The notes under the pieces: generated by a model
Seen by the model: only the letters and a program-made list of their open reading frames with translations
Database searches by the model: none
What the model was told of the DNA's origin: nothing
Shown here: one piece after another, positions 15,321-64,000 of the stretch
Layout: each line of letters starts with the position of its first letter
Position numbering within the stretch: position 1 is the first letter of the stretch
Source of the DNA: Patiria pectinifera
Lineage: Eukaryota; Echinodermata; Asteroidea; Valvatida; Asterinidae
Assembly: GCA_029964075.1 (NCBI GenBank)
Contig: CM057147.1
Span: 20,915,513-20,979,512 of the forward strand
Length of the DNA stretch: 64,000 nucleotides
Direction of reading: 5' to 3'
Made by a program: the position numbers and the translations under genes

Positions 15321-17095
15321 CAAACTAAACTCCGTGATATGGACAAGAAATAAAACGACATCTCCGCCAAAAAAAACCCAGCGATACTACACAGCTTGTA
15401 CTTGAAATCCGTTTGCGAATATATGACGATCAACCAAACGACTACTTATACTGTTTCCTGTGCGTATCATGGTGACATTTGCAAGCAATTGATGTATAGT
15501 TCCCAACCCCCTCCCCCATTGTGAACCTGTATAGTCACGTGACAGGCGATTAAGACGTCTAAGATATTTTTTACGACCCGTTACCGTGACCAGGCCTGCG
15601 GTCAGTGACCAAGTCCAATGGTTCTCCGAACGCAACATCATAACTTGTTCCAAGTTCAAGAATGCTTCATGTTCATTCGTTGTGCTTGTGTGCATAAGGT
15701 AAAAGTGACTAGTGCAAGTCTAGGTACACTTGTTCTTGGTCTAGGTATACTTGGCTGACAGTCAATTGTACACAATCAACACACATGTACACAATCAACA
15801 CAGTGAATCATTTCTGAGCTTTAACCAAGAATTCTACTTCCCAAGCCTCACCTTCTTCACATTCACTTTGCTGTACGGGTGTGCAGAGAAAGTCAGGCGC
15901 ACCCGAAGCCTAGATTTGCGGAATGGGCCGTGAAAAGAAACCGGAGTGGGGTCACAATATACCGCCCTCTGTAAGACTACACATTGTGGCCACAGTCAAA
16001 TACACAAGCGGCTATGGCTTCGCATGTGCCGCTGACGCGCCACGGAGAGTAGCCGGAGCCGTTGATAGCACCACCTGTCTCGGAAAAGATCGACATTTAA
16101 ATTATTTCTTCAAAGTTTTGATTATCATTTACTACTCCCAAGCAAGTGGTTTTTACATCTTTATTACCGACCGCAGCGAAGATACAAGTACTGTTCCGCT
16201 TGTAATTGTGTAACCTCTCACACACCAACCTTCGTAATATCCATTAAGGCTTTGGAATAGCTAATATTAAAAGTCCTGGTAGATAAATTTGAAAACAAAA
16301 ATCCAATTATTTGTATTCATAATCAGATCCCTTGAACTATGGCACGCCCTGCCTTTCCAACCAGCATTTTCTAACATAATATCGACTACATTTACTGGTT
16401 TGTATTTTGTGCATAGCCTATGTAAAATGCCTCCGCTAATTTTGGTATTGGATAAAAGAAAAAAGCGGCCCCATAAGTCTTACCTATAGGGTCCTGTGCA
16501 AAGTAAATCGGCAGCGATGCATAATGCATCGAATCAAAATGTGTTGACACTGTAGGAAATGTTCATTACTCATGATAGTCATCAAGTTATTTGAGATTGC
16601 AAATGGAGCTCCATCCATCAACAATGGCCGGACAAAAAATGCCCCTGAAATTTTGAGAAACGCTCGACCTAATTAATTCGTAGTTGATTGTGCTCAAAAA
16701 AGAGAGAATGGTTTACTTTGTACTCGTGATTGTAATGTAAACGGACAGCTGTTGGGGTTGTTAGTTTGTGTTATTGTGTGGGATAATTGTTTCTTTTGGA
16801 AATGTGATGGTCCAATTTAATGACTTTTTTATTGATCTGTTTAAGCATAATTAACTCTCTGGGCCAAGTTTGCCGTGTGACAGTGTTAACGAGCTGTTTT
16901 GCTTTGGTATTTGTACATCGGTAGGTGACAAAAACAGTGGTAGTCGCATATATTCAGCAATACCAGCAGAAATACAGACCAGAGGTGTGCCTGATATGCG
17001 AGTTCCATCTGCTGGAAGGGTGAAAGAAAAACGTGTGATAGAAAATTCCGAGACTATCCACGTCTCGGAGCTCTTGAGTCCAACCTGCCTCTAAG
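15321..17095. other. Upstream region of the 17-kb GPCR, no other gene recognised
   Basis: No coding or RNA gene is recognised. Short tandem CACAATCAACACA units lie at 15771-15801. The last few hundred bases should contain the 5' UTR and promoter of the GPCR at 17096, or an upstream non-coding exon, but no clear TATA box was identified. Confidence 0.35.
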
Positions 17096-18301
17096 ATGGA
17101 TAACTCCTCGTCTGTTGTTGACAACACTTCAGAGTCAAATGATGGGATCAGCGATTGCTACTTCCCGGTGATGAATCTAACGGACGAGCGTATCGCAGAG
17201 TTCTACTTACTGAATGCGCTAACCGGCCGGGTGATCCTGATAGTCATGTTCATCATCTTAGCTATCGGTGTTCCAGGGAACCTGACGTTTCTCATCACGG
17301 TGTTCCGGGTGCAGGCCATGCGCAACGCCACCAACATGTACCTGACCAGCCTTGCTGTGGTTGACCTTACCTTCCTGTCGATAAGTATTTTCACGTACTT
17401 CTTCTACTTCAACAACACCGTCCGGACCCATCTAACTACCGCTGATGTGGTGGGTTGCATCGGTGCCTTCATCGTCCCCTACTTCACCTACTTCCTGTCC
17501 ATCTCTACCGTAACTCTGGTGACGCTGGACAAGTACAACGCTGTCTGCAACCCCATCAGCTACATCCAGAGGCGAAACAAACTACGGGCACTTCGGCTCA
17601 TCATCGGCAGCTGGGTAGTTGCCGTACTGCTGGCTGGATTGGTCATACTTCGCTTCGCCAGGATGGTTAAATTTTGTGCTGTGTGGCCGGACACGGAGAA
17701 GTATCAAGACCTCCCTGTGGTGCTTGGATACTGCGTCTCTATCTCGGATGCCGGGTTTATAGTCGGGCATCTGGTGGAGGCAGTGGTCTTTGTTGTGGCT
17801 CTGGTGGTTAATGCGGTCATGTACGCACGGATCATCCTTCACCTCAGCGCTCGAGTCAACAAGAAGAAACAGCAGCAGCAGACGATCCCTACCCAGGCCA
17901 CTCAGATTCGCAATCAAGTCTCGCGGCTTCTCATCACCTTCGGTACGGTGTTCTTCCTGTGCCAGGCTCCGTTCGTCATCATCTCCTTGGCCAACATCGT
18001 GGACTATCTCATTGGCACGCCACCCGCGGTCACCTACCGGAAGCTTGTTCTCCCGCTGACCATCAGCCACGTTTTCATCTTCCTGAATTCTGCCATCAAC
18101 CCGGTCATCTACAACTTGACCAGCAGGATCTACCGCAATGCCTTCAAGCAGACCGTGTGCGGTGACCGCTGCACTCCGACAAGATGCGATAGCGTCACCT
18201 CACTACCGATTGACAAAGCAGACCCGCCCGATAACAATAGCTTCGAAAACAGATTGCAAGATGATGAAGATGATGTCGATGCTAGAGATTCTAAGCTGTA
18301 A
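17096..18301 (+). CDS. Intronless rhodopsin-type (class A) peptide-receptor-like GPCR
   Basis: This 401-residue seven-transmembrane receptor is encoded in one uninterrupted exon. The N-terminus carries N-glycosylation sequons at N3, N10 and N27. TM1 has GVPGN (N62, the family 1.50 Asn), TM2 has LAVVD (D90), Cys121 and Cys194 can form the TM3-ECL2 disulphide, TM4 has W173, TM5 has Y243 and TM7 has NPVIY (335-339). Two motif positions are unusual: the DRY box is DKY (145-147) and the TM6 CWxP motif is CQAP (289-292). A poly-Gln patch lies in the third cytoplasmic loop, and the tail is acidic. The start ATG has a favourable A/G context (AAGATGG). The TM1-TM2 style is that of neuropeptide receptors such as thyrotropin-releasing hormone or growth hormone secretagogue receptors, but the ligand cannot be assigned. 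It is a distant relative of the three paralogs at 28.8-45.9 kb. Confidence 0.95.
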   Translation: MDNSSSVVDNTSESNDGISDCYFPVMNLTDERIAEFYLLNALTGRVILIVMFIILAIGVPGNLTFLITVFRVQAMRNATNMYLTSLAVVDLTFLSISIFTYFFYFNNTVRTHLTTADVVGCIGAFIVPYFTYFLSISTVTLVTLDKYNAVCNPISYIQRRNKLRALRLIIGSWVVAVLLAGLVILRFARMVKFCAVWPDTEKYQDLPVVLGYCVSISDAGFIVGHLVEAVVFVVALVVNAVMYARIILHLSARVNKKKQQQQTIPTQATQIRNQVSRLLITFGTVFFLCQAPFVIISLANIVDYLIGTPPAVTYRKLVLPLTISHVFIFLNSAINPVIYNLTSRIYRNAFKQTVCGDRCTPTRCDSVTSLPIDKADPPDNNSFENRLQDDEDDVDARDSKL

Positions 18302-28825: not shown

Positions 28826-29905
28826 TCAATATGCATTAATGGAATTTATTGAGCAGGTAAATGCCCTCCGTATCGCCCGACGATAAGATGGGCACACAGC
28901 ACAATAAATAATGGGATTGATGGCTGAGTTGAGAAACAATAAACTGTGGCTGAAAACTCTCAAACTGTTCCAAAGGTCGTTAATTTGCAGGAAGGACATC
29001 CCCTTGGTAAGGCCGGATATGTAAACGAAATTGATGCAGGCATAAGGGAACTGGCTGATGAAGAAGACCGTACCATTGATGACCAGCATGTGGGCGACTT
29101 GGTTGCGGACCAGGCGAGCCCTGCTGGCCGACTCGTCTTGCTCGTCGATGTTGGTAATATGGCGGTTTCCCAGAGTACGGATGATCTGGATGTACATGAA
29201 TGCATTGCCAACCAGCGCGATCATGAATGGTACGGATGAGGCCAGGTTGCCCACGACCAGGGCCCAAGGTGCCAGCGGCAGACAGAGGCCGATGATATCC
29301 GGGAGATCGGCGAATTTCTCGGTGTCGTTACCATTGCTGGGCCAGGTGACGCAGATACGGACCGGGTCGGCGTACTGCAAGACGGCGAGGCAGGTGAAGG
29401 CCAAGCCCACGCACCAGGTGGCCAGGACAAGCTTGACCGCCCGGCGCTTGCTGTTGACGGTCAAGTGCTTCAGTGGCCGGCAAATGGCGTTGTAGCGCTC
29501 GGCAGCTACCAGAGTCACTGTCGAAACGGAGGTTAAATAAGTCAGGAACGATATCGAGACAGCAACGGGACACCAAACGTTGAGCAGGGAATGAATGTGA
29601 CTGCGCACCGGGGCTGGCAGGTACAGCAGGTAACTGATGACGCAGAAGACCAAGAAGATAATATCAGCTAGGGCAAGGTTGACTAAGAAGATGTTAGTGA
29701 TGGTCTTCATGTAAGGTACCCGAGCTACCGCCACAAGGAACGATACATTCCCTGGCACACCAATGATCAAAGCTAGGATCATGACACCCAGGATCATTGC
29801 TCGCGATCCTGGGCTGATCATGTAGGTAGAGGCCCGCTTGACATCATCTGATAGCTCCAGTTGGTACAGATCCGAACAGTTCAAGTGACTCGTATCCACT
29901 ACCAT
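28826..29905 (-). CDS. Intronless class A GPCR, paralog A
   Basis: This is a 359-residue, single-exon seven-transmembrane receptor. The start is the ATG giving MVVDTSHLNC, shared by all three paralogs; an in-frame extension upstream begins only with TTG and is not used. Visible landmarks are sequons at N9 and N193 (extracellular loop 2), GVPGN in TM1 (N53), LALAD in TM2 (D81), the Cys112-Cys185 disulphide pair, ERY (136-138) in place of DRY, W164, P226, Y238 and NPIIY (330-334). TM6 reads SQFP (284-287), so the usual toggle Trp is Gln. It is a tandem partner of paralog B at 39.5 kb, about 88% identical by eye. Intronless tandem receptors of this kind resemble the lineage-specific sensory GPCR expansions described in sea urchin. 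The ligand is unknown. Confidence 0.95.
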   Translation of the reverse strand: MVVDTSHLNCSDLYQLELSDDVKRASTYMISPGSRAMILGVMILALIIGVPGNVSFLVAVARVPYMKTITNIFLVNLALADIIFLVFCVISYLLYLPAPVRSHIHSLLNVWCPVAVSISFLTYLTSVSTVTLVAAERYNAICRPLKHLTVNSKRRAVKLVLATWCVGLAFTCLAVLQYADPVRICVTWPSNGNDTEKFADLPDIIGLCLPLAPWALVVGNLASSVPFMIALVGNAFMYIQIIRTLGNRHITNIDEQDESASRARLVRNQVAHMLVINGTVFFISQFPYACINFVYISGLTKGMSFLQINDLWNSLRVFSHSLLFLNSAINPIIYCAVCPSYRRAIRRAFTCSINSINAY

Positions 29906-30406
29906 TTTGCATCGACACACCTTAACTGATTGCAAAGTAAGCCTACTTCAAGTTAAGATGTAGAGTAGGATGTCGATACTTCCTCTCCTAGTATCACACG
30001 CAGTTAATATAGCACTCAACAGCTTGACAATATTGAAACCATCTCGTCTACATGCAGAAATCTGTATGATGGGGCGCGACCACACAGTTACATCACACAA
30101 TGAAAGTTAGAACTGATCAGCACAGTCACGGATGAGCGATTTTTTTTTTTATACCTGGTTGGGATTTATTATACCCTCATAAATTGACTGACCGCAAGCA
30201 AGTCAAACAAAAGCAGTGATTTTATGCATATTTGTCATGAACAATGCCGGAAGCAACTGGGCTGGAAGAGAAATAAAAAGATAGATAATCAGGAAAACGA
30301 AGGGTATTTTTTTTTAAGGTGTCGCGCTTTTTTTTCTCACTGAAATCAACCTAAATAATATACCGTGAAGGTGATACCCGCACTTTCGGACGTTTATATT
30401 CATCTC
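29906..30406 (-). promoter_or_regulatory. Conserved 5' flank of GPCR paralog A
   Basis: This region aligns with the 5' flank of paralog B (40631-41080): AGCACTCAACAG, TTGAAACCATCTCGT, CATGCAGA, CACGGATGAGCGAT, ACCCTCATAAAT, CACTGAAATCAACC and ACCCGCACTT are shared in order. On the minus strand a TATAAAAA sits just upstream of the conserved ATCGCTCATCCGTG block, about 250 bases before the ATG. That block is a candidate transcription start region, which is inference only. Confidence 0.5.
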
Positions 30407-39550: not shown

Positions 39551-40630
39551 CTAATATGCGTTTGTGGAGTGCGTTGAGCTGGTAAACGCCGTGCGTACCG
39601 CCCGGCGGTAAGATGGGCACACAGCACAATAAATGATAGGATTGATAGCTGAGTTGAGAAACAATAAAGTGTGGCTGAAAACTCTCAAACTGTTCTGAAG
39701 ATCGTTAACTTGCAGGAAGGACATCCCCTTGGCAAGGCCGGATATGTAGACGAAATTGATGCAGGCATAAGGGAACTGGCAGATGAAGAAGACCGTGCCA
39801 TTGATGACCAGCATGCGGGCGACTTGGTTGCGGACCAGGCGAGCTCTGCTAACCGACTCGTCTTGCTCGTCGATGTTGGTAATATGTCGGTTTCCCAGAG
39901 TACGGATGATCTGGATGTACATGAATGCATTGCCAACCAGTGCGATCATGAACGGTACGGATGAAGCCAGGTTGCCCACGACCAGGGCCCAAGGTGCCAA
40001 CGGCAGACAGAAGCCGATGATGTCCGGCAGATCGGCGAATTTCTCGGTGTCGTTACCATCGCTAGGCCAGGTGACGCAGATACGGACCGGGTCGGCGTAC
40101 TGCAAGACGGCGAGGCAGGTGAAGGCCAAGCCCACGCACCAGGTGCCCAGGACAAGCTTGACCGCCCGGCGCTTGGTGTTGACAGCCAGGTGCTTCAGCG
40201 GCCGGCAAATGGCGTTGTAGCGCTCGGCAGATACCAGGCAAACTGTCGCGACGGAGGTGAAGTAGGTCAGGAATGGAATGGCGAACGACACAGAGCAACT
40301 GAGGTTGAGCAAAGAGTGGATGTGACTACGCACCGGGGCTGGCAGGTACAGTAGATAACTGACGATCGTGAAGAACAAGAAGATAATATCAGCTATGGCT
40401 AGGTTGACCAGGAAGATGTTTGTGATGGTCTTCATGTAAGCAACCCGAGCAACAGCCACGAGGAACGATACATTCCCTGGCACACCAATGATCAGAGCCA
40501 GGATCTGGACACCCAGGGCTATTGCTCGAGATCCTGGGTTAATTAGGTAGGTAGAGGCCCGCTTGATATCATCTGATAAGTCCAGTTGGTACAGATCTGA
40601 ACAGTTTAAGTCGCTCGTATCCACTACCAT
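39551..40630 (-). CDS. Intronless class A GPCR, paralog B
   Basis: This 359-residue single-exon receptor has the same length and motif layout as paralog A: sequon N9, GVPGN, LAIAD, Cys112-Cys185, ERY (136-138), CQFP in TM6 and NPIIY in TM7. By eye about 43 residues differ from A, and only five of those fall between residues 135 and 259. TM2 end and TM3 are the most divergent part (LSCSVSFAIPF against VWCPVAVSISF), which lines the typical ligand pocket. The start ATG gives MVVDTSDLNC. It lies in the same orientation as A about 10 kb away, and head-to-head with paralog C. No pseudogene features are seen. Confidence 0.95.
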   Translation of the reverse strand: MVVDTSDLNCSDLYQLDLSDDIKRASTYLINPGSRAIALGVQILALIIGVPGNVSFLVAVARVAYMKTITNIFLVNLAIADIIFLFFTIVSYLLYLPAPVRSHIHSLLNLSCSVSFAIPFLTYFTSVATVCLVSAERYNAICRPLKHLAVNTKRRAVKLVLGTWCVGLAFTCLAVLQYADPVRICVTWPSDGNDTEKFADLPDIIGFCLPLAPWALVVGNLASSVPFMIALVGNAFMYIQIIRTLGNRHITNIDEQDESVSRARLVRNQVARMLVINGTVFFICQFPYACINFVYISGLAKGMSFLQVNDLQNSLRVFSHTLLFLNSAINPIIYCAVCPSYRRAVRTAFTSSTHSTNAY

Positions 40631-41080
40631 CTTGCATCAACACGCCAATAACTGGTAGCAAAGTAAGCCTGCCCCAAGGTAGTTTTTCAAAGGCCTGAAG
40701 AGTGTATGATGTCCGTAACGCTCCTCTTCTGGTATTCGCACGCAGCCAACAAGAGCACTCAACAGACTGACACAATAAATTGAAACCATCTCGTTTACAT
40801 GCAGAGATCGGTATGAGTGGTGCGCGATCACGCACTAAAGCGACATGGAGAGATGCACAGCACAGACACGGATGAGCGATGGTAATAACTGGTTGGGGTA
40901 TAAGTGGCGCCGCATACCCTCATAAATAGACGGACTGCAAACAAGTCGCGTACAAGCAGTAATTTGTCATCTCCCATTGAGCGACCAATTGTGGTTTTTT
41001 TTACTTAAAGGTGATGCATTTGGTTTTCATCACTGAAATCAACCATATAATGTAAAATATGTTACCCGCACTTCGAACAT
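40631..41080 (-). promoter_or_regulatory. Conserved 5' flank of GPCR paralog B
   Basis: Ordered blocks are shared with the 5' flank of paralog A, including GACACGGATGAGCGAT at about 40865 and CACTGAAATCAACC at about 41030. The TATA-like stretch of A is not preserved exactly (ACTTATACCCC on minus). The conservation shows that the duplication included the promoter region. Confidence 0.45.
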
Positions 41081-43987: not shown

Positions 43988-44799
43988 CTTGAATCAAAAC
44001 ATTCTTTGCGCCCGAACTTTAAAAAAGTTGGAAGTAAGTCGAACTGTGCTTAATCATAGTTCTAGTCGAACTTTGTATTATTTTATATCAAGGTGAATGC
44101 TGTTAAGGATATATCTGTGTACTCCAAATGTTGGGTAGGGACTGTTGAGATATTTGTCAAAATTCCAAAATAAAATAATAATAATATCAAGAAGGTCATT
44201 TCGACCTGGTTGGGGAAAAATTGCAGGTATGCGCTAAATCACGGCAAAGCCCATATACGTACGTCATTATAGTCCTTGACTGTCACGGTTATTTCCACTC
44301 ACATCAGTAAACACCTAGTGGGGTAAGGTTTAGTATTGAGATGTACACCATTAAAATGGACGATAGATGTACTATCCCAAAAGCAATTCTAGCCATAATG
44401 GTAATGGACCTCGGCACTATTTCAAACGTTGATGAAATTATGTAATGCTCGTGCGTGACGTGTTCGCAGTCCGGCTCACGATGCGTACACGCGGCGTCTG
44501 ACTGTGTTGCTCAACCAATTTTCATTAATGCTGCCATTACTCATCTTCAACTGCACTGTACTACCTTTCACTACAGGTATGAAGTATCACTGTGTGATCT
44601 TCCATCCGTCAGACCGAACTCTGTATTCAACAGGTGCCTGCATTCAGCCAGTTGGGTTTGTCTGTAAACTGTCTGTGAGACCCTAGACTTAGTAGAACGG
44701 ACATCGTTCTTAACAAAGAACTCTGAGGAACGAATCATTGAAACTGGCGGCAGGATAACATTGTTTTATTAACATTAGGTAAAGGCGTGATAATCCAAG
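43988..44799. other. 5' flank of GPCR paralog C
   Basis: Unlike A and B, the sequence upstream of paralog C shares no obvious blocks with the other two promoters. No separate gene is recognised. Confidence 0.4.
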
Positions 44800-45879
44800 A
44801 TGGTAGTCGACACGAGTCACTTGAACTGTTCGGATCTGTACCAACTGGACCTATCAGATGATGTCAAGCGGGCCTCTACCTACCTGATCAGCCCAGGATC
44901 GCGAGCAATAATCCTGGGCATCATGTGCCTGACTTTGATCGTTGGTGTGCCAGGGAATGTATCGTTCCTTGTGGCTGTGGCTCGGGTGGCTTACATGAAG
45001 ACCATCACTAACATCTTCTTAGTCAACCTAGCCCTAACTGATATCCTTTTCGTGGTGTACACTGTTACCAGTTACCTGTTGTACCTGCCGGCCCCGGTGC
45101 GCAGTCACATTCATTCCCTGCTCAACGTTTGGTGTCCCGTTGCTGTCTCCATATCGTTCCTGACTTATTTTACCTCCGTTTCGACAGTGACTCTGGTAGC
45201 TGCCGAGCGCTACAACGCCATTTGCCGGCCGCTGAAGCATTTGACCGTCAACAGCAAGCGCCGGGCGGTCAAGCTTGTCCTTGGCACATGGTGCGTGGGC
45301 TTGGCCTTCACCTGCCTCGCCGTCTTGCAGTACGCCGACCCGGTCCGTATCTGCGTCACCTGGCCTAGCGATGGTAACGACACCGAGAAATTCGCCGATC
45401 TCCCGGATATCATCGGCTTTTGTCTGCCGCTGGCACCTTGGGCCCTGGTCGTGGGCAACCTGGCCTCATCCGTACCGTTCATGATTGCGCTGGCTGGCAA
45501 TGCATTCATGTACATCCAGATCATCCGTACTCTCGGCAACCGCTTCGTCACTCAGAATACCGGCCAAGGGCAGATGGTGCTGAGAGCTCGCCTGGTCCGC
45601 AACCAAGTCGCCCGCATGCTGGTCATCAATGGCACGGTCTTCTTCCTCTGCCAGTGTCCCTATGCCTGCATCAATTTCGTCTACGTATCCGGCTTTATCA
45701 AAGGACTGTCCTTCTTGGAAGTGAACGATCTTCAAAATAACTTGAGGGTTTTCAGTCATGGTCTCCTGTTCTTTAACTCAGCTGTCAATCCTATAATATA
45801 TTACGCTATGTGCCCGACCTACCGTAGCGCTGCGCGTACGGCATTTAGTATTAGAACGAAATCCTCGCCAGACGGATAG
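44800..45879 (+). CDS. Intronless class A GPCR, paralog C (inverted)
   Basis: This 359-residue single-exon receptor has the same N-terminus (MVVDTSHLNC) and landmarks: N9 sequon, GVPGN, Asp81 in the TM2 motif LALTD, ERY, TM6 CQCP and TM7 NPIIY. Residues 103-160 match paralog A except at position 124, while residues about 153-248 are almost identical to paralog B. The third cytoplasmic loop (residues about 249-262) and the C-tail are unlike both. The patchwork suggests gene conversion. It lies head-to-head with B, 4.2 kb apart. Different loop 3 and tail imply different G-protein coupling or desensitisation, which is inference. Confidence 0.95.
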   Translation: MVVDTSHLNCSDLYQLDLSDDVKRASTYLISPGSRAIILGIMCLTLIVGVPGNVSFLVAVARVAYMKTITNIFLVNLALTDILFVVYTVTSYLLYLPAPVRSHIHSLLNVWCPVAVSISFLTYFTSVSTVTLVAAERYNAICRPLKHLTVNSKRRAVKLVLGTWCVGLAFTCLAVLQYADPVRICVTWPSDGNDTEKFADLPDIIGFCLPLAPWALVVGNLASSVPFMIALAGNAFMYIQIIRTLGNRFVTQNTGQGQMVLRARLVRNQVARMLVINGTVFFLCQCPYACINFVYVSGFIKGLSFLEVNDLQNNLRVFSHGLLFFNSAVNPIIYYAMCPTYRSAARTAFSIRTKSSPDG

Positions 45880-58310: not shown

Positions 58311-59163
58311 TATACAGGACCGTGAGTCAAAAAGAAAGTTACCCAACTTAATGATTATTTATCTTAAAAAGCAATCAAATTCGAAACACCAATAAAATAT
58401 ATCTGAGAGATCATCTTCTTCCACTCATCTAAAAAAAAAAAGAAAATACTAAAATATTGATCCATGCTGTCAGGAGTTATGAACGTTTTACCAAGGCTCA
58501 AAAAAGTCTCCGGTTTCTGGTATGCGCGCGCGTCGCCGTAGCCATGCGCGTCGGCAAAATGAAAAAGTTGGGGTTTTTTTCAATAAAAGATGATGTCTCA
58601 AAACCGCCAAACTCACTGGTTTGACTGGAATCCTGCTGCTGCACAGTTTTAACGTGTTTTTAGATGGGGTTATGATCGAGAATAAGCTTTATGTGGCCTC
58701 TCGGGACTCCCATATATTTGCACTAAGTTTAGTCGGGCACCATTTGCAGTCATCAGCCGACATTTGAAGCAAAAACAAAACAGGTAAAAAAAAGCCGCGT
58801 CGCCGCACCACTTTTTGGGCAAGCTCCATACCAGAAACCGGAGACTTTTTTGGGGCCTAATTTATATAGCTGTCAATGGAATACTGTAGAGCTGGGTGAG
58901 TATTACAGATTACACGTCCACGTTTCATTGTACTCAATAGGCATTCATCGGTTCGTAAAACGGTAAATGATCAGTAGTGGACAGCCGAGTTTTGTGATTT
59001 TTTTATTGAAATAGACATAACTTGGAATAGAGTATGCAAATTACGTTAAATTTCAAAGTTAAAAGTCAATAGGATGTACGTTGTTCCAATTGTTTGTGAG
59101 TGAAATGGAGCTAGCCTAATATTCTTAAAATATTTCTTTCTTTCTTTTTGACCCACCTTGTAT
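58311..59163. mobile_element. Mariner-like non-autonomous element, interrupted by a nested MITE
   Basis: The left end TACAGGACCGTGAGTCAAAA and right end TTTTTGACCCACCTTGTATA are inverted with AAAGAAAG / CTTTCTTT inside. A second element of this type starts at once at 59166 (TATACAGGGTGGGTCAAAAA), so the junction forms a hairpin. The M1 MITE at 58494-58858 lies inside. No transposase ORF is present. Confidence 0.6.
58494..58858. mobile_element. MITE family M1, copy 2 (complete, nested)
   Basis: GGCTCAAAAAAGTCTCCGG plus TTTCTGGTATG at the left end is inverted as CATACCAGAAACCGGAGAC plus TTTTTTGGGGCC at the right. The interior matches 52427-52736. Because it splits the mariner-like element, it inserted later. 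Confidence 0.8.
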
Positions 59164-59310
59164 AATATACAGGGTGGGTCAAAAAGAAAGATTTTAAAAA
59201 TATTTTTAAAATGTTATAGTGCTTAATTGATAATAATTGTTATAGTATAAGCCCTAAAGATTTTTTTTAAACTACTGTAATTCATTTGTACAGTTCAGCG
59301 CACTATAGCA

Positions 59311-59473
59311 ATGGCAACATCAGACAACATGACAACCGTTCAGGCTGCACCCAGGCCCACCGTGCTCCAGCCTACACCTGAAGGATCAGGACTGGATGCC
59401 GGGGCCTGGGCAGGCATTGGCATTGGAATTGGGACTGGCTTGATAGCTTTGATCGGACTAATTCTGGCATTGT
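59311..59473 (+). CDS. NLR gene exon 1: stalk and transmembrane helix
   Basis: From the ATG the exon encodes 54 codons: a polar Thr/Pro-rich stretch (sequon N6-M-T; APRPTVLQPTPEG), then a helix of about 24 apolar residues (AWAGIGIGIGTGLIALIGL, residues about 31-55). It ends TTG T|GTGAGTT, a strong donor at 59474. Upstream, TTTGTACAG at 59285-59293 with a preceding T-rich tract could be a 3' splice site, and the frame stays open through it, so ATG 59311 may be internal and a larger ectodomain could precede it. No signal peptide is seen. The Arg/Lys cluster in the next exons puts the C-terminal side in the cytosol by the positive-inside rule. Confidence 0.7.
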
Positions 59474-60231
59474 GTGAGTTGATTGGATGATCACTGCCTA
59501 CCTTAAAATTGTTTCAGGGCAGAGGATCCGAGAGTTGGGGCGGGGGTGCAATGGACTGAGTAATCATTTTTCAAAATGGGCAAATCAAGCTTTAATTTGA
59601 TGTATGTCTTGATGACCTGTAAGACTCGTTAGTATTTTCCCCAATTTTGTTTGAGGTGGGGTATTATCATTGGTGCCTATGGGAATTGATTTACTGGTAT
59701 ACACCCGCAAAGGGTGCATACCTATGTTCCCCAGGCCCGATACCTATGTTCCCCCAAATCCTTAGGATAAGAGTTCCCCAATAACGGTTCTCCAACCCTA
59801 ACCCTACCCCTAACCCCAACCCTAACCCTAATCCTAAGGATTTGGGGGAACATAGGTATTGGGTAAAATAGGAACTGGGGAATATAGGTATTGGGGAACA
59901 TTGGGTAGACACAAACAGGGGGTCCCTACTCCGACGCAGGTAATTGGATATGTTTTAAATGTGTGAAAATACAATCCAAACTTAAAATTGTATTTCGTAG
60001 GGATGCACACGCTCAAAATAGATAAAATATTGAAGTAAAAAAATACAAGTTAAAGTTTTATCTGGATTATAAAAAAATCGAATTCGAAAAAGAGCAGGGA
60101 TAGTGTATCTTTAAACATAATTTGAATTTCTTATATTCTCATTTACCTCATATGAAACACGTGGGAAATGTTGTTGGTGACCTAATAATAGGTATTTCTT
60201 TTAATAATGGCATTGTCTTTCTTTTCATTAG
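59474..60231 (+). other. NLR intron 1, containing a telomeric palindrome
   Basis: Bounded by GTGAGTT and a TTTCTTTTCATTAG acceptor. It contains the third telomere-motif palindrome at 59700-59912. Confidence 0.65.
59700..59912. repeat. Palindromic element with interstitial telomeric repeats (copy 3, reverse)
   Basis: Left arm: ACCTATGTTCCCC units and CCCCCAAATCCTTAGGAT. Core: CCCTAACCCT-type units. Right arm: ATCCTAAGGATTTGGGGG then AACATAGGTATTGGG. The reverse complement aligns with 5938-6080 through CCCCCAAATCC-TAGGATTAGGG. Confidence 0.85.
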
Positions 60232-60288
60232 TGAGATATTTGTATGGTGATAATGTCATCGGTAGACGTCGAAAGCAGAGCACGAAAG
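60232..60288 (+). CDS. NLR gene exon 2: basic juxtamembrane segment
   Basis: This 57-base exon follows TTTTCATTAG and precedes GTATGA. Read in the phase left by exon 1 it encodes LRYLYGDNVIGRRRKQSTK, completing the helix end and a strongly basic stop-transfer segment. Its length is a multiple of three, so phase 1 is kept. Confidence 0.65.
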
Positions 60289-60654
60289 GTATGAATTAGT
60301 TAATTATTACATTGCCAAGTCATTTATACCTAAAAACTTTTTAAACATTAATTAGTAGAGCTTTAACATTGTTTAGTTTTAATATTATTACGGTTCAAAT
60401 TTAGGTTCGTTTTGATTAAAAAAAAAATTGATAAACGCACTGGGATACTTATTGGGGGAGGAACAACGCCTTTGGTGTCCAATGTCTAATAATTATCGGA
60501 GGGACATCCCCCTCCCCCCTTTCTCAATCCAGGTTTTGTTGAGGTTCATTTATAGGCATTTATTTTTAAAAAAAAACCACTTTTTCCTATAACATAACTG
60601 CAAAGGACAATTCCTTAATCCCAAAGTAACTTTCGGATTGCATATTTTTTTCAG

Positions 60655-60738
60655 GTCGGCGGCGTCACTCACGGAGCCAGGAAGAGGACAGTGAACAAGG
60701 GATACCACGTAATACAAGCATGCCTACTGCTCCGGCAG
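60655..60738 (+). CDS. NLR gene exon 3: basic/acidic linker
   Basis: An 84-base exon between TTTTTTTTCAG-type and GTAAGTCC splice sites. In phase it encodes GRRRHSRSQEEDSEQGIPRN and MPTAPAG, a low-complexity cytoplasmic linker. Length is a multiple of three, so it could be skipped without a frameshift. Confidence 0.65.
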
Positions 60739-61146
60739 GTAAGTCCACACGCAGATCTACTTTTTCTTTTGCTTTGTACACAAAAGTTTGCCAGCAACTT
60801 TAAAATCTAATAAGGCAACGGTAGACCAACAGTTGATATCCATTCTCATAAAAAAAATATCTAAATTTGCTTTTGTGTAAAGAAAATGTATCAAAATGTT
60901 TTGCCCTGCAAACTGAATTGAAGAGGTTTTCAGATCGGGTTTTAATAGACAATGGTGAATTGACTCTTGATTGACTTGCGATTTGACTGGTGTTTTGCCT
61001 TGTGGTTGAGCTGTGGCTGACTCAATTAAACATAGTATATTAGGGCTATCCAAACTATTGATTGACATCAATTTGATTCGTGATTTTGTCGATATATTGA
61101 ACAAGGAAACCAGTTGTAACGGTTGGCGTATTTATTACTTTCACAG

Positions 61147-63368
61147 GAGAGACGAACGCTACTCGGCCAAAGTCAGAGCCAAGACGGGCTAAGCAAACTG
61201 CTGCAAGTAGGTGTAGGAAGGCCTTAAAAGAAATATACACTAGCACGGGTAGCTATGTGCAGATGCTTCCATGGGTCGATGACGACAAAAAGCATATTAT
61301 GGACATCTACACAAAGTTACAATTAGAAAAGGGCGATACTGATTTAAAGGGAAAGGTAAAATCGTATTGGGATATTTTCAAACTGAAATCAAAAGAGGGT
61401 CATCCAATCATACGGGCAATTTTAAGAGGATGGGCTGGTCTAGGGAAAACGACTCTTATTGACAAAATTGCTTACGATTGGGCTTGTGGCTCTGTTGCTG
61501 CACTGAAAAAGTACAAACTTGTTTTTGTATTGAAAATGCATTCCCTGCAACAAAAGTCGGATGTGATCGACGCATTGTTTGATCAGTTATTAGATGAGAA
61601 GACCATAAATAGAGAGGATTTGAAATCCTTCATTACAGCCAACCCTGAGGACGTGCTGTTTCTGTTGGACGGATTTGATGAATTCATGTCGACCGAACTT
61701 GATGTGACGGAGTTCAGTTCGATTCTTAAAATGCTTAATCGAAAGGGAGAGTACAAAAAATGCAGTGTACTTGTGACAACCCGCCCCTCACACTATGACA
61801 GACTGGTAAAGCAGACTTTGATTCAGAAACCGTTTGCTGTTGTGAATGTTTTGGGATTTAGTAAGCCCGATATTGAGGAATATGTACACAAATTTTACTC
61901 AGAAGAACCATCCAAAGCTGACGGACTTCTTCAGAGGATTAAATCCCCAGTTCTATTTGATTTGGCGAAAAGTCCCATGTTGTTGTTGTTGATGTGTTTG
62001 TTATGGAGAGAGAATGCAACACTCCCTGACACAATGTTCCGTCTTTATGATAAGGCACTGTTTTACATATTTAAACGTAAGGCCATTATGTCAACAGAAG
62101 AAATATCAAGGCTTGTTATTGCAATTGGAAAGGTTGCTTTGGGCGGTCTTCTTTCATCTGATCAAAAGCTAACATTTCAAGAGGAAGATTTTGAGCCGGA
62201 TGTACTTGATTTGGCCATACGAGCTGGCATCCTCACCAGTCAGAGAGTCTTTAAGGATATCGACACTTGTAAACGTGTTCATTTCATCCATAAGACTTTT
62301 CAAGAATTTTGCGCTGCGAAATGCTACCAAATTTTAACATCGGAAGGCGAAACACAACCATTTCAAACGTTCTTCCTTCAACTGTCTGAAACAGCAGGGT
62401 TTGAATATCTACTGCGCTTTTGCTGCGGTGACAATGAAGGGCCACGTACAAATTCAATTTTAAATATGTTATCACATAAAGTCAAGCAGGCAGGAGATCT
62501 AGATGATAAACACTTACAATTAGCCCTGCACTGTTACTTTGAAAGTCAGAGCCAGACATTGCCACCGTTGGTGTTAATACACTACGTTATTGTTCCAACA
62601 CTCTGTGTTGAAATTGAAAGCCGTGATGAACTGACATCGTTGATGTACTTCCTACACAACGTTACAGACCAAACACAAGATGGGGGGGATGCTTACCTTA
62701 ACAATATACAATCACTGAGGACATCACCCGTCGCTTTTGGAACGTTAGGTACAGAATTTGTGAATTATATGACTAGAATGGCAAATCTTCGTGATTTTCG
62801 TATAAGTGCGGAGCATGGGCTATCGTTTTTTTCTTACAACTGTATACCTTTACTTAACTCTTGCCTGAAAGAAATGACGTCGCTTCAGTCCGTGACCTTG
62901 TTGAGCTGCCATCTAATGCCGTATTACATGGAACTCGTTGTGGGGGGATTGAAAAGTATGCCCAACCTTGTTGAATTGGATCTGTCTGGCAATACCCTAC
63001 TTGCTGGATCACGTCGGTCGTGGTTGTACTTAACGGAAATTAGAACCCTCAACAAACTGGCCTTGCGTGTCTGCAATTTGTCAAGGAATAACATACAACA
63101 CATTGCCGTGGCACTGAGCAATATGCCCAACCTTGAAGAGTTGGATTTGTCTAAGAATAAGACCCTTGCTGGATCAGGTCGGTCATGGTCTCACCTAAAG
63201 GAAATCAAAACCCTCAAAAAACTGGTCTTGAATGACTGCAGTTTGTCAATGAAGGACATAAAGCACATTGCCGTAGCAGTGAGTAATATGCCCAACCTTG
63301 AGAAGTTGGATTTGTTTCACAATACATGTATACCCTTGCTGGATCCGGTCGGTCATTGTCTCACCTAA
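61147..63368 (+). CDS. NLR gene exon 4: NACHT NTPase and leucine-rich repeats
   Basis: The exon starts after TACTTTCACAG in the same phase and brings the predicted protein to 841 residues. Residues are numbered from ATG 59311. A basic lead with ALKEIYTSTGSYVQMLPW (a stretch often found before the NACHT in invertebrate NLRs) precedes the NACHT domain: Walker A GWAGLGKTT (196-204), Walker B VLFLLDGFDEF (271-281), sensor-1 LVTTRP (about 310-315) and winged-helix FIHKTFQEFCAA (481-492) with its conserved His. C-terminal ribonuclease-inhibitor-type LRRs repeat MPNLEELDLSKN and LKKLVLNDCSLSMKDI in 165-base double units. No DEATH, CARD or PYD domain is seen; the transmembrane segment takes that place. 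The frame is lost by a +5 indel near 63325-63340, so stop 63366-63368 may be an artefact or a true truncation. Likely role: innate immune sensing. Confidence 0.85.
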
Positions 63369-64000
63369 AGGAAATCAAAACTCTCAAAAAATGGTCTTGA
63401 ATGACTGCAGTTTGTCAGGGGAGGACATACAGCACATTGCCGTGGCAGTGAGCAATATGCCCAACCTTGAAGTATTGGATTTGTCTTTCAATATCCTTAC
63501 TGGATCAGGTCGGTCATTGTCTCACCTAAAAGACATTAAAACTCTCAAAAAACTGGACTTGAGTGTGTGCAATTTCTCAAGGGAGGACATACAGCAAATT
63601 GTCGTGGCACTGAGCGATATGCCCAACCTTGAGGAGTTGGATTTGTCTAACAATACCCTTGCTGGATCAGGTTAGTCATTGTCTCACCTAAAGGACATCA
63701 AAACTCTCAAAAAACTGGGCTTGAGTTTCTGCGATTTGTCAAGGCTGGACATACAGCAAATTGTCGTGGCACTGAGCGATATGCCCAACCTTGAGGAGTT
63801 GGATTTGTCTTACAATACCCTTGCTGGATCAGGTCAGTCATTGTCTCACCTAAAGGACATCAAAACTCTCAAAAAACTTATCTTGAGTCACTGCAATTTG
63901 TCAAGGGAGGACATACAGCAAATTGTCGTGGCACTGAACGATATGCCCAACCTTGAAAAGTTGGATCTGTCTTACAATACGGCCCTTGCTGGCTTGGACT
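62958..64000 (+). repeat. 162-165-bp tandem LRR-coding repeat
   Basis: ATGCCCAACCTT recurs at 62958, 63123, 63288, 63457, 63619, 63781 and 63943. Each unit encodes two LRRs of 26-29 residues. DNA similarity between units is high, especially for the last three 162-base units, which implies recent expansion or homogenisation. Confidence 0.9.
63369..64000 (+). pseudogene. Continuation of the NLR LRR array, broken frame, runs off the window
   Basis: LRR units continue with MPNLEVLDLSFN, MPNLEELDLSNN and so on. ATGCCCAACCTT starts at 63288, 63457, 63619, 63781 and 63943. The 169-base spacing between the first two, against 165 or 162 elsewhere, comes from +5 and -1 indels, so the frame is shifted by one. 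A TAG at 63673-63675 (where neighbours have CGG or CAG) then interrupts the new frame, which stays open afterwards to the edge. Choices: a decayed 3' part, an alternative splice (CAGGTTAGT around 63669 looks like a donor), or an assembly error in near-identical repeats. Confidence 0.7.

Follow-up and report, generated by a model that had tools for sequence, protein, structure and literature searches.

We analysed a window of 64,000 nt from the genome of the sea star Patiria pectinifera (C19:20915513-20979512, plus strand; positions given without a locus name count from its first nucleotide). At 59311-63368 it holds a putative membrane-anchored receptor gene of the NACHT and leucine-rich repeat (LRR) type, or NLR. 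The gene model has four exons on the plus strand (59311-59473, 60232-60288, 60655-60738 and 61147-63368), which have GT/AG borders and join in frame into one reading of 841 amino acids. All three junctions are in phase 1, in agreement with the initial annotation, which described three small exons in one consistent phase. When the splice sites were ranked against the 3385 AG and 3757 GT sites of the window, the acceptors at 60232, 60655 and 61147 and the donors at 60289 and 60739 were among the best 0.03-0.8%. The codon-usage scores of the three small exons were not significant, since non-coding stretches free of stops scored as high in 7%, 42% and 22% of cases, and the case for these exons therefore rests on conservation. 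The exon set goes beyond chance because the same exons recur in paralogues, and the four-exon model is, on the evidence of the sequence, real.

The first coding exon (59311-59473) carries the start codon, a Thr/Pro stalk with an N-M-T sequon and a single predicted transmembrane (TM) helix, and ends in phase 1 at the donor GTGAGT; the 17 nt before it (59294-59310) would belong to the 5' untranslated region (UTR). A 57-nt phase 1-1 exon (60232-60288) encodes the basic stop-transfer segment RYLYGDNVIGRRRKQSTK, and an 84-nt phase 1-1 exon (60655-60738) encodes a linker. The last exon runs from 61147 to the end of the open frame at 63368 and encodes the NACHT-LRR body. Its NACHT domain (61419-61907, plus strand; residues 193-355; Pfam E 5.6e-29) has an intact Walker A (GWAGLGKTT) and Walker B (VLFLLDGFDE), and the LRRs were recognized as LRR_4 (6.8e-10) and LRR_8 (1.3e-9). 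A NACHT with both Walker motifs and C-terminal LRRs places the protein among the NLRs, though the frame breaks inside the repeat array. The exon had been called a full NACHT-LRR exon; NACHT and LRRs stand, but the array is not full.

Sequence relatives in the PDB were NLRP3 (E 6.3e-22), NLRC4 and NLRP1. The AlphaFold model of the NACHT-LRR exon was mediocre (mean pLDDT 64.3, pTM 0.50); among the 50 Foldseek matches listed for it, NLRP14, NLRP3, NLRC4 and NOD2 stood near the top, with TM-scores of 0.28-0.47 on the query. A Pfam search of the spliced protein, with E up to 1, found no Death, CARD or PYD domain, and the structure model of residues 1-100 of the exon (block pLDDT 25-54) was uninformative on an N-terminal death fold. 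The window copy has kept its motifs for Walker A and Walker B, for sensor 1 and for the winged helix intact; a pattern scan of 11 paralogues including this one found both Walker motifs in 11, sensor 1 in seven and the winged-helix motif in 10. The NACHT dN/dS between the window copy and the 10 others was 0.40-0.59, and over all 55 pairs it was 0.36-1.14 with a median of 0.61. Pattern scans of viral and prokaryotic contig collections gave no confirmed relative of the NACHT exon.

The genome (613.5 Mb in 1020 contigs) has a very large NACHT family, with at least 101 matches (101 scored of 439 candidates). The search with the 54-residue stalk-TM exon revealed nine matches, eight of which were credible, with E values no higher than 0.019: besides the window, there is one copy on C14, and C17 has six. 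The ninth, on C4, was dropped (E 1.5, 34% identity). Each of the eight credible copies is followed on its own strand by a NACHT match, at distances of 2.1, 7.7, 4.5, 2.8, 5.4, 6.1, 5.8 and 4.7 kb. The presence of the TM exon beside NACHT in relatives had been put forward as a check on the gene, and it holds for 8/8 copies among the paralogues of this genome. Counterparts of the 57-nt basic exon occur in six of the eight copies including the window (not found in L017 and L019), and its loss would be frame-neutral because the small exons are phase 1-1. The linker exon has counterparts in seven of the eight (not found in L033) and is repeated in L014 and L016. A detector built on an ATG, a Thr/Pro stalk, a helix and a donor, tuned after examples had been inspected, found 7/19 loci and 0/19 antisense controls; in the window it found solely the exon at 59311. 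It missed L025 because of a TAG.

Exons of the same kind were also seen further afield. Two distant NLRs, L012 (C21; 6856-7000, minus strand; MAELGSMNVSTT) and L020 (C5; 3833-4016, plus strand; MAEFDGMNTTTNT), have a candidate upstream exon with ATG, stalk, sequon and helix. Their NACHT domains are 29% and 33% identical. L033, a TM-NLR copy with stops in its NACHT, has retrotransposon-like reading frames in one of its introns (L033:3378-5578).

The stalk-TM exon encodes one strongly hydrophobic segment before NACHT, the best Kyte-Doolittle (KD) 19-residue window (KD19) of the spliced protein being 2.47 at residues 36-54; a second hydrophobic stretch, after NACHT, covers residues 370-388 (KD 1.83). 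About 32 residues, rich in Thr, Ser and Pro, precede the helix. They carry one basic and three acidic charges, and the 27 residues after it carry 10 basic and one acidic. An N-x-S/T sequon occurs at residue 6 in 7/7 aligned copies, always as N-x-T, and is also found in L033. The helix is hydrophobic in the seven scored copies (KD19 2.06-2.62) with differing residues, for example GIGIGIGTGLIALIGLILAL versus IVGVVIPVIMLIIAI. In drift simulations with three copies as starting points, the open frame and a helix of this kind survived together in 15-29% of cases at 0.15 substitutions/site and in 3-15% at 0.2-0.28; when the ATG and the sequon also had to be kept, these values were 5-9% and 0.4-3%. 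The predicted helix is maintained.

The charge pattern, the short N-terminal tail and the sequon are consistent with a type III (reverse signal-anchor) protein. One helix, a basic flank and then NACHT-LRR also support, as a prediction, the single-pass NLR with cytosolic NACHT-LRR that the initial annotation had proposed. Outer-membrane signal-anchors of mitochondria, such as Tom20, have a short N-terminal tail, a helix and a basic cytosolic flank as well, and this pattern is matched here; the helix might then hold the NLR on mitochondria, outside the secretory pathway. The high hydrophobicity in seven copies and the sequon in the stalk of eight copies and of the distant L012 and L020 favour the endoplasmic reticulum (ER) route, and we consider a mitochondrial anchor improbable.

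The initial annotation left room for an ectodomain upstream of a possible acceptor at 59293. The ATG at 59311 is common to 8/8 copies, and six of them have a stop in frame 6 or 9 nt 5' of it, downstream of the likely acceptor; the window and L033 have no stop between acceptor and ATG. A tblastn search of the 64-kb window with frames of paralogues (seven Death, four immunoglobulin (Ig) and one TM) gave no match at E 1e-3, and a regular-expression scan of both its strands for Ig-like motifs gave one useless antisense match. When 45.9-59.3 kb was scanned for phase 1-1 exons, only two candidates came up; they overlap and were not searched for domains. An upstream ectodomain is thus unlikely on this evidence, and the acceptor at 59293 more likely closes an intron of the 5' UTR. 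Because of the stop before the ATG and the lack of a Death or Ig homologue, the outside or lumenal part would be about 32 residues long. Such a stalk, with no ectodomain, leaves little room for recognition, and the coupling to an extracellular event that had been envisaged is therefore unlikely.

A classical type I receptor would need ectodomain exons further upstream, Ig exons as in AjNLRC4 for instance, that splice into the exon at 59294. The acceptor itself, and the open frame from it to the ATG in the window and L033, would allow this, and an ectodomain could be of a kind outside the queries. The same genome does have NLRs of that sort: frames of the Ig V-set or C2-like type, together with a TM segment, lie upstream of the NACHT exons at L021 (2450-2917 and 3312-3599) and L022 (6205-6645), with Pfam values of 7e-10 and 1.4e-8 for the V-set frames and the layout published for AjNLRC4. 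Against it stand the in-frame stop in 6/8 copies, the empty tblastn search and the sparse result of the phase 1-1 scan, and we regard a type I receptor as highly improbable.

The nearest relatives of the gene fall into two kinds. The NACHT-exon search, in which 73 of 527 candidates were scored, listed 76 matches, among which 15 were at least 61% identical, counting the window and one fragment, and the next was 58% identical. Eight of these 15 have a stalk-TM exon upstream and five have Death exons; the remaining two, in the C17:9.71-Mb cluster, were counted in neither class. The Death-type loci are L010, L011, L015 and L018, whose NACHT-LRR is 64-67% identical to that of the window, and L034, which has a 19-residue Death remnant. 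The Death exons were recognized by Pfam in 6/6 frames tested (E 5e-7 to 3e-13), and their borders are in phase 1 at 7/7 donors and at the 5/5 acceptors found. Death matches number at least 150 in the genome (150 scored of 595 candidates). No locus had both stalk-TM and Death within the stretches examined (9-10 kb per locus; 59 kb upstream in the window).

In a tree built from 11 of these 15 close matches and four outgroups, the TM and Death types were not separated, and L014 (TM) was sister to the rest (95/94). Two changes of label are required on this tree, and 0% of the bootstrap trees need one; 31 of 500 label shuffles were as low for TM. The topology implies that the N-terminal module was exchanged at least once, and suggests several TM/Death exchanges. 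Taken together, these comparisons suggest an anchor that is conserved and that, as a prefabricated exon, changes places with death domains. Modules that are exchangeable at phase 1 might instead act as alternative first exons, with a soluble NLR as the main product and the stalk-TM exon as one of several. At the six other TM loci scanned and in the window there was no Death match, however, L033 had only weak ones (E 0.09 or worse), and no stalk-TM match lay beside L010, L011, L015 and L018 in stretches of 9-10 kb. We find alternative first exons very doubtful.

The LRR array (62957-63980, plus strand) consists of 6.2 copies of a 162-nt unit. One unit spacing is 169 nt instead of 162, the frame does not hold past about 63,320, and there is a TAG at 63673. 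Shifts in unit length near 63,320 and near 63,391 close the frame at 63368, and the LRR reading continues to 63980 in another frame, which closes about 50 nt beyond the window. To judge by these breaks, the LRR region of the window copy has probably decayed in part; they may mark the locus as a pseudogene, be polymorphic or stem from an error in the assembly.

The locus could be a pseudogene in decay, in which case only less damaged paralogues would have a working form of the architecture. The array speaks for this with its TAG and its two changes of length, as do the other close matches: 12 of the 14 rows at least 61% identical have open frames of 824-1242 amino acids with no stop in the match. 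The NACHT motifs, the helix and the splice borders of the window copy are intact, however, and its NACHT dN/dS lies inside the range of all 55 pairs; an assembly error could also explain the breaks, and shorter LRRs need not keep the protein from working. We put the pseudogene at slightly under an even chance.

The gene would best be explained as a member of a small NLR subfamily that has a stalk-TM module where its siblings carry Death, with a type III anchor and a cytosolic NACHT-LRR, and we hold this to be probable. The helix would act as a reverse signal-anchor, leaving the N-terminus outside or in the lumen and the NACHT-LRR in the cytosol at the membrane. There the LRRs might sense an intracellular ligand and NACHT might oligomerise into a ring on the membrane, with output by clustering at the membrane or by assembly together with the Death-domain NLRs that are its close relatives. 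A bolder version, which we think unlikely, is a modular sensor/helper system: in a single clade, exchange of phase-1 exons would switch closely related NACHT-LRR bodies between anchor and Death, and membrane sensors would recruit soluble Death siblings through their similar NACHT into an inflammasome-like ring.

Several observations weigh against a conserved, exchangeable anchor of type III. The pN/pS values of exons 1, 2 and 3 (0.75, 1.00 and 0.92) are near neutral, and residue constraint there is therefore weak. At least three of the eight TM copies are damaged: the window in its LRRs, L025 by the TAG, which stands in the TM exon before the helix, and L033 by stops in NACHT. The splice sites had been called good, which holds for the five sites ranked above but not for the acceptor at 59294 and the donor at 59474; both are mediocre, ranking in the best 8% of window sites. 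In the window and L033 (2/8 copies), the nearest in-frame stop before the ATG lies at or before the acceptor. Finally, the well-supported branches of the tree force no more than one TM/Death change, and seven of its 12 inner branches are open.

Other features of the window include four long single-exon frames of rhodopsin-type G protein-coupled receptors (7tm_1) at 17078-18301, 28826-29947, 39551-40636 and 44794-45879, three of which look alike by eye. Inverted repeats, perhaps the ends of a DNA transposon, occur at 58499-58852 and 59139-59191, just 5' of the first coding exon, and a copy that looks similar by eye lies near 52.4-52.7 kb. Scans for Rfam families and tRNAs found none in the window. 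Elsewhere in the genome, large clusters of NACHT occur on C16, C17 and C21 and of Death on C17, C20, C22 and C422, and some of the open frames with NACHT are of great length, reaching 3129 codons.

The initial annotation regarded animal NLRs as mostly soluble. This is out of date, as TM NLRs are already published for a sea cucumber, anemones and sponges; the short-stalk anchor without an ectodomain is a new form. In a literature search over titles and abstract openings, with subscription journals largely outside it, no single-pass short-stalk NLR without an ectodomain appeared among the matches listed. In Apostichopus japonicus, AjNLRC4 is a NACHT protein on the coelomocyte membrane, with a helix at 483-503 and a cytosolic NACHT at 600-757 (PMC8699970). 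Its helix stands about 100 residues before NACHT; the window gene has a predicted helix and a basic flank before NACHT, and its NACHT would likewise lie in the cytosol if the predicted topology holds. AjNLRC4 is described there with Ig-like and Ig domains outside and no LRR, whereas the window gene has LRRs and no ectodomain was found. The second 'TM' of AjNLRC4 (776-795) may be the counterpart of the hydrophobic stretch at 370-388. A further echinoderm NACHT protein with TM segments, AjNLR-new, has 1197 amino acids, with NACHT reported outside and Ig inside (PMC13133943); no Ig was found in the window gene.

The TMD-containing NLRs of anthozoans, as outlined for anemones, likewise have N-terminal TM helices before NACHT, but three to five of them (PMC5094078), whereas the window gene has one, with a conserved stalk. 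Those of the sponge Dysidea avara are similar in being putative membrane-bound TM NLRs (PMC12909245), a comparison drawn from a brief description without stalk or exon structure. Related material includes the NLRs with V-set of Chiridota heheva (PMC8913654), the NACHT combinations of amphioxus (PMC2575513), the NACHT genes of ctenophores (PMC11797021) and a survey of NLR inflammasomes (PMC11508797).

The canonical NLRC, NLRP and NLRD proteins have an N-terminal death fold, and none was found for the window gene by Pfam (E up to 1) or by tblastn in the window. In the same genome, the Death NLRs L010, L011, L015 and L018 have a similar NACHT-LRR and phase-1 junctions, and L018 also shares the linker exon, but they have Death exons where the window gene has stalk-TM. 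A shared anchor without an ectodomain is visible here at the level of exons, beside Death-type siblings that differ in their N-terminal module. What an NLR gains from a membrane helix in place of a death domain becomes directly testable, and a route of exon shuffling between soluble and membrane immune sensors is indicated.

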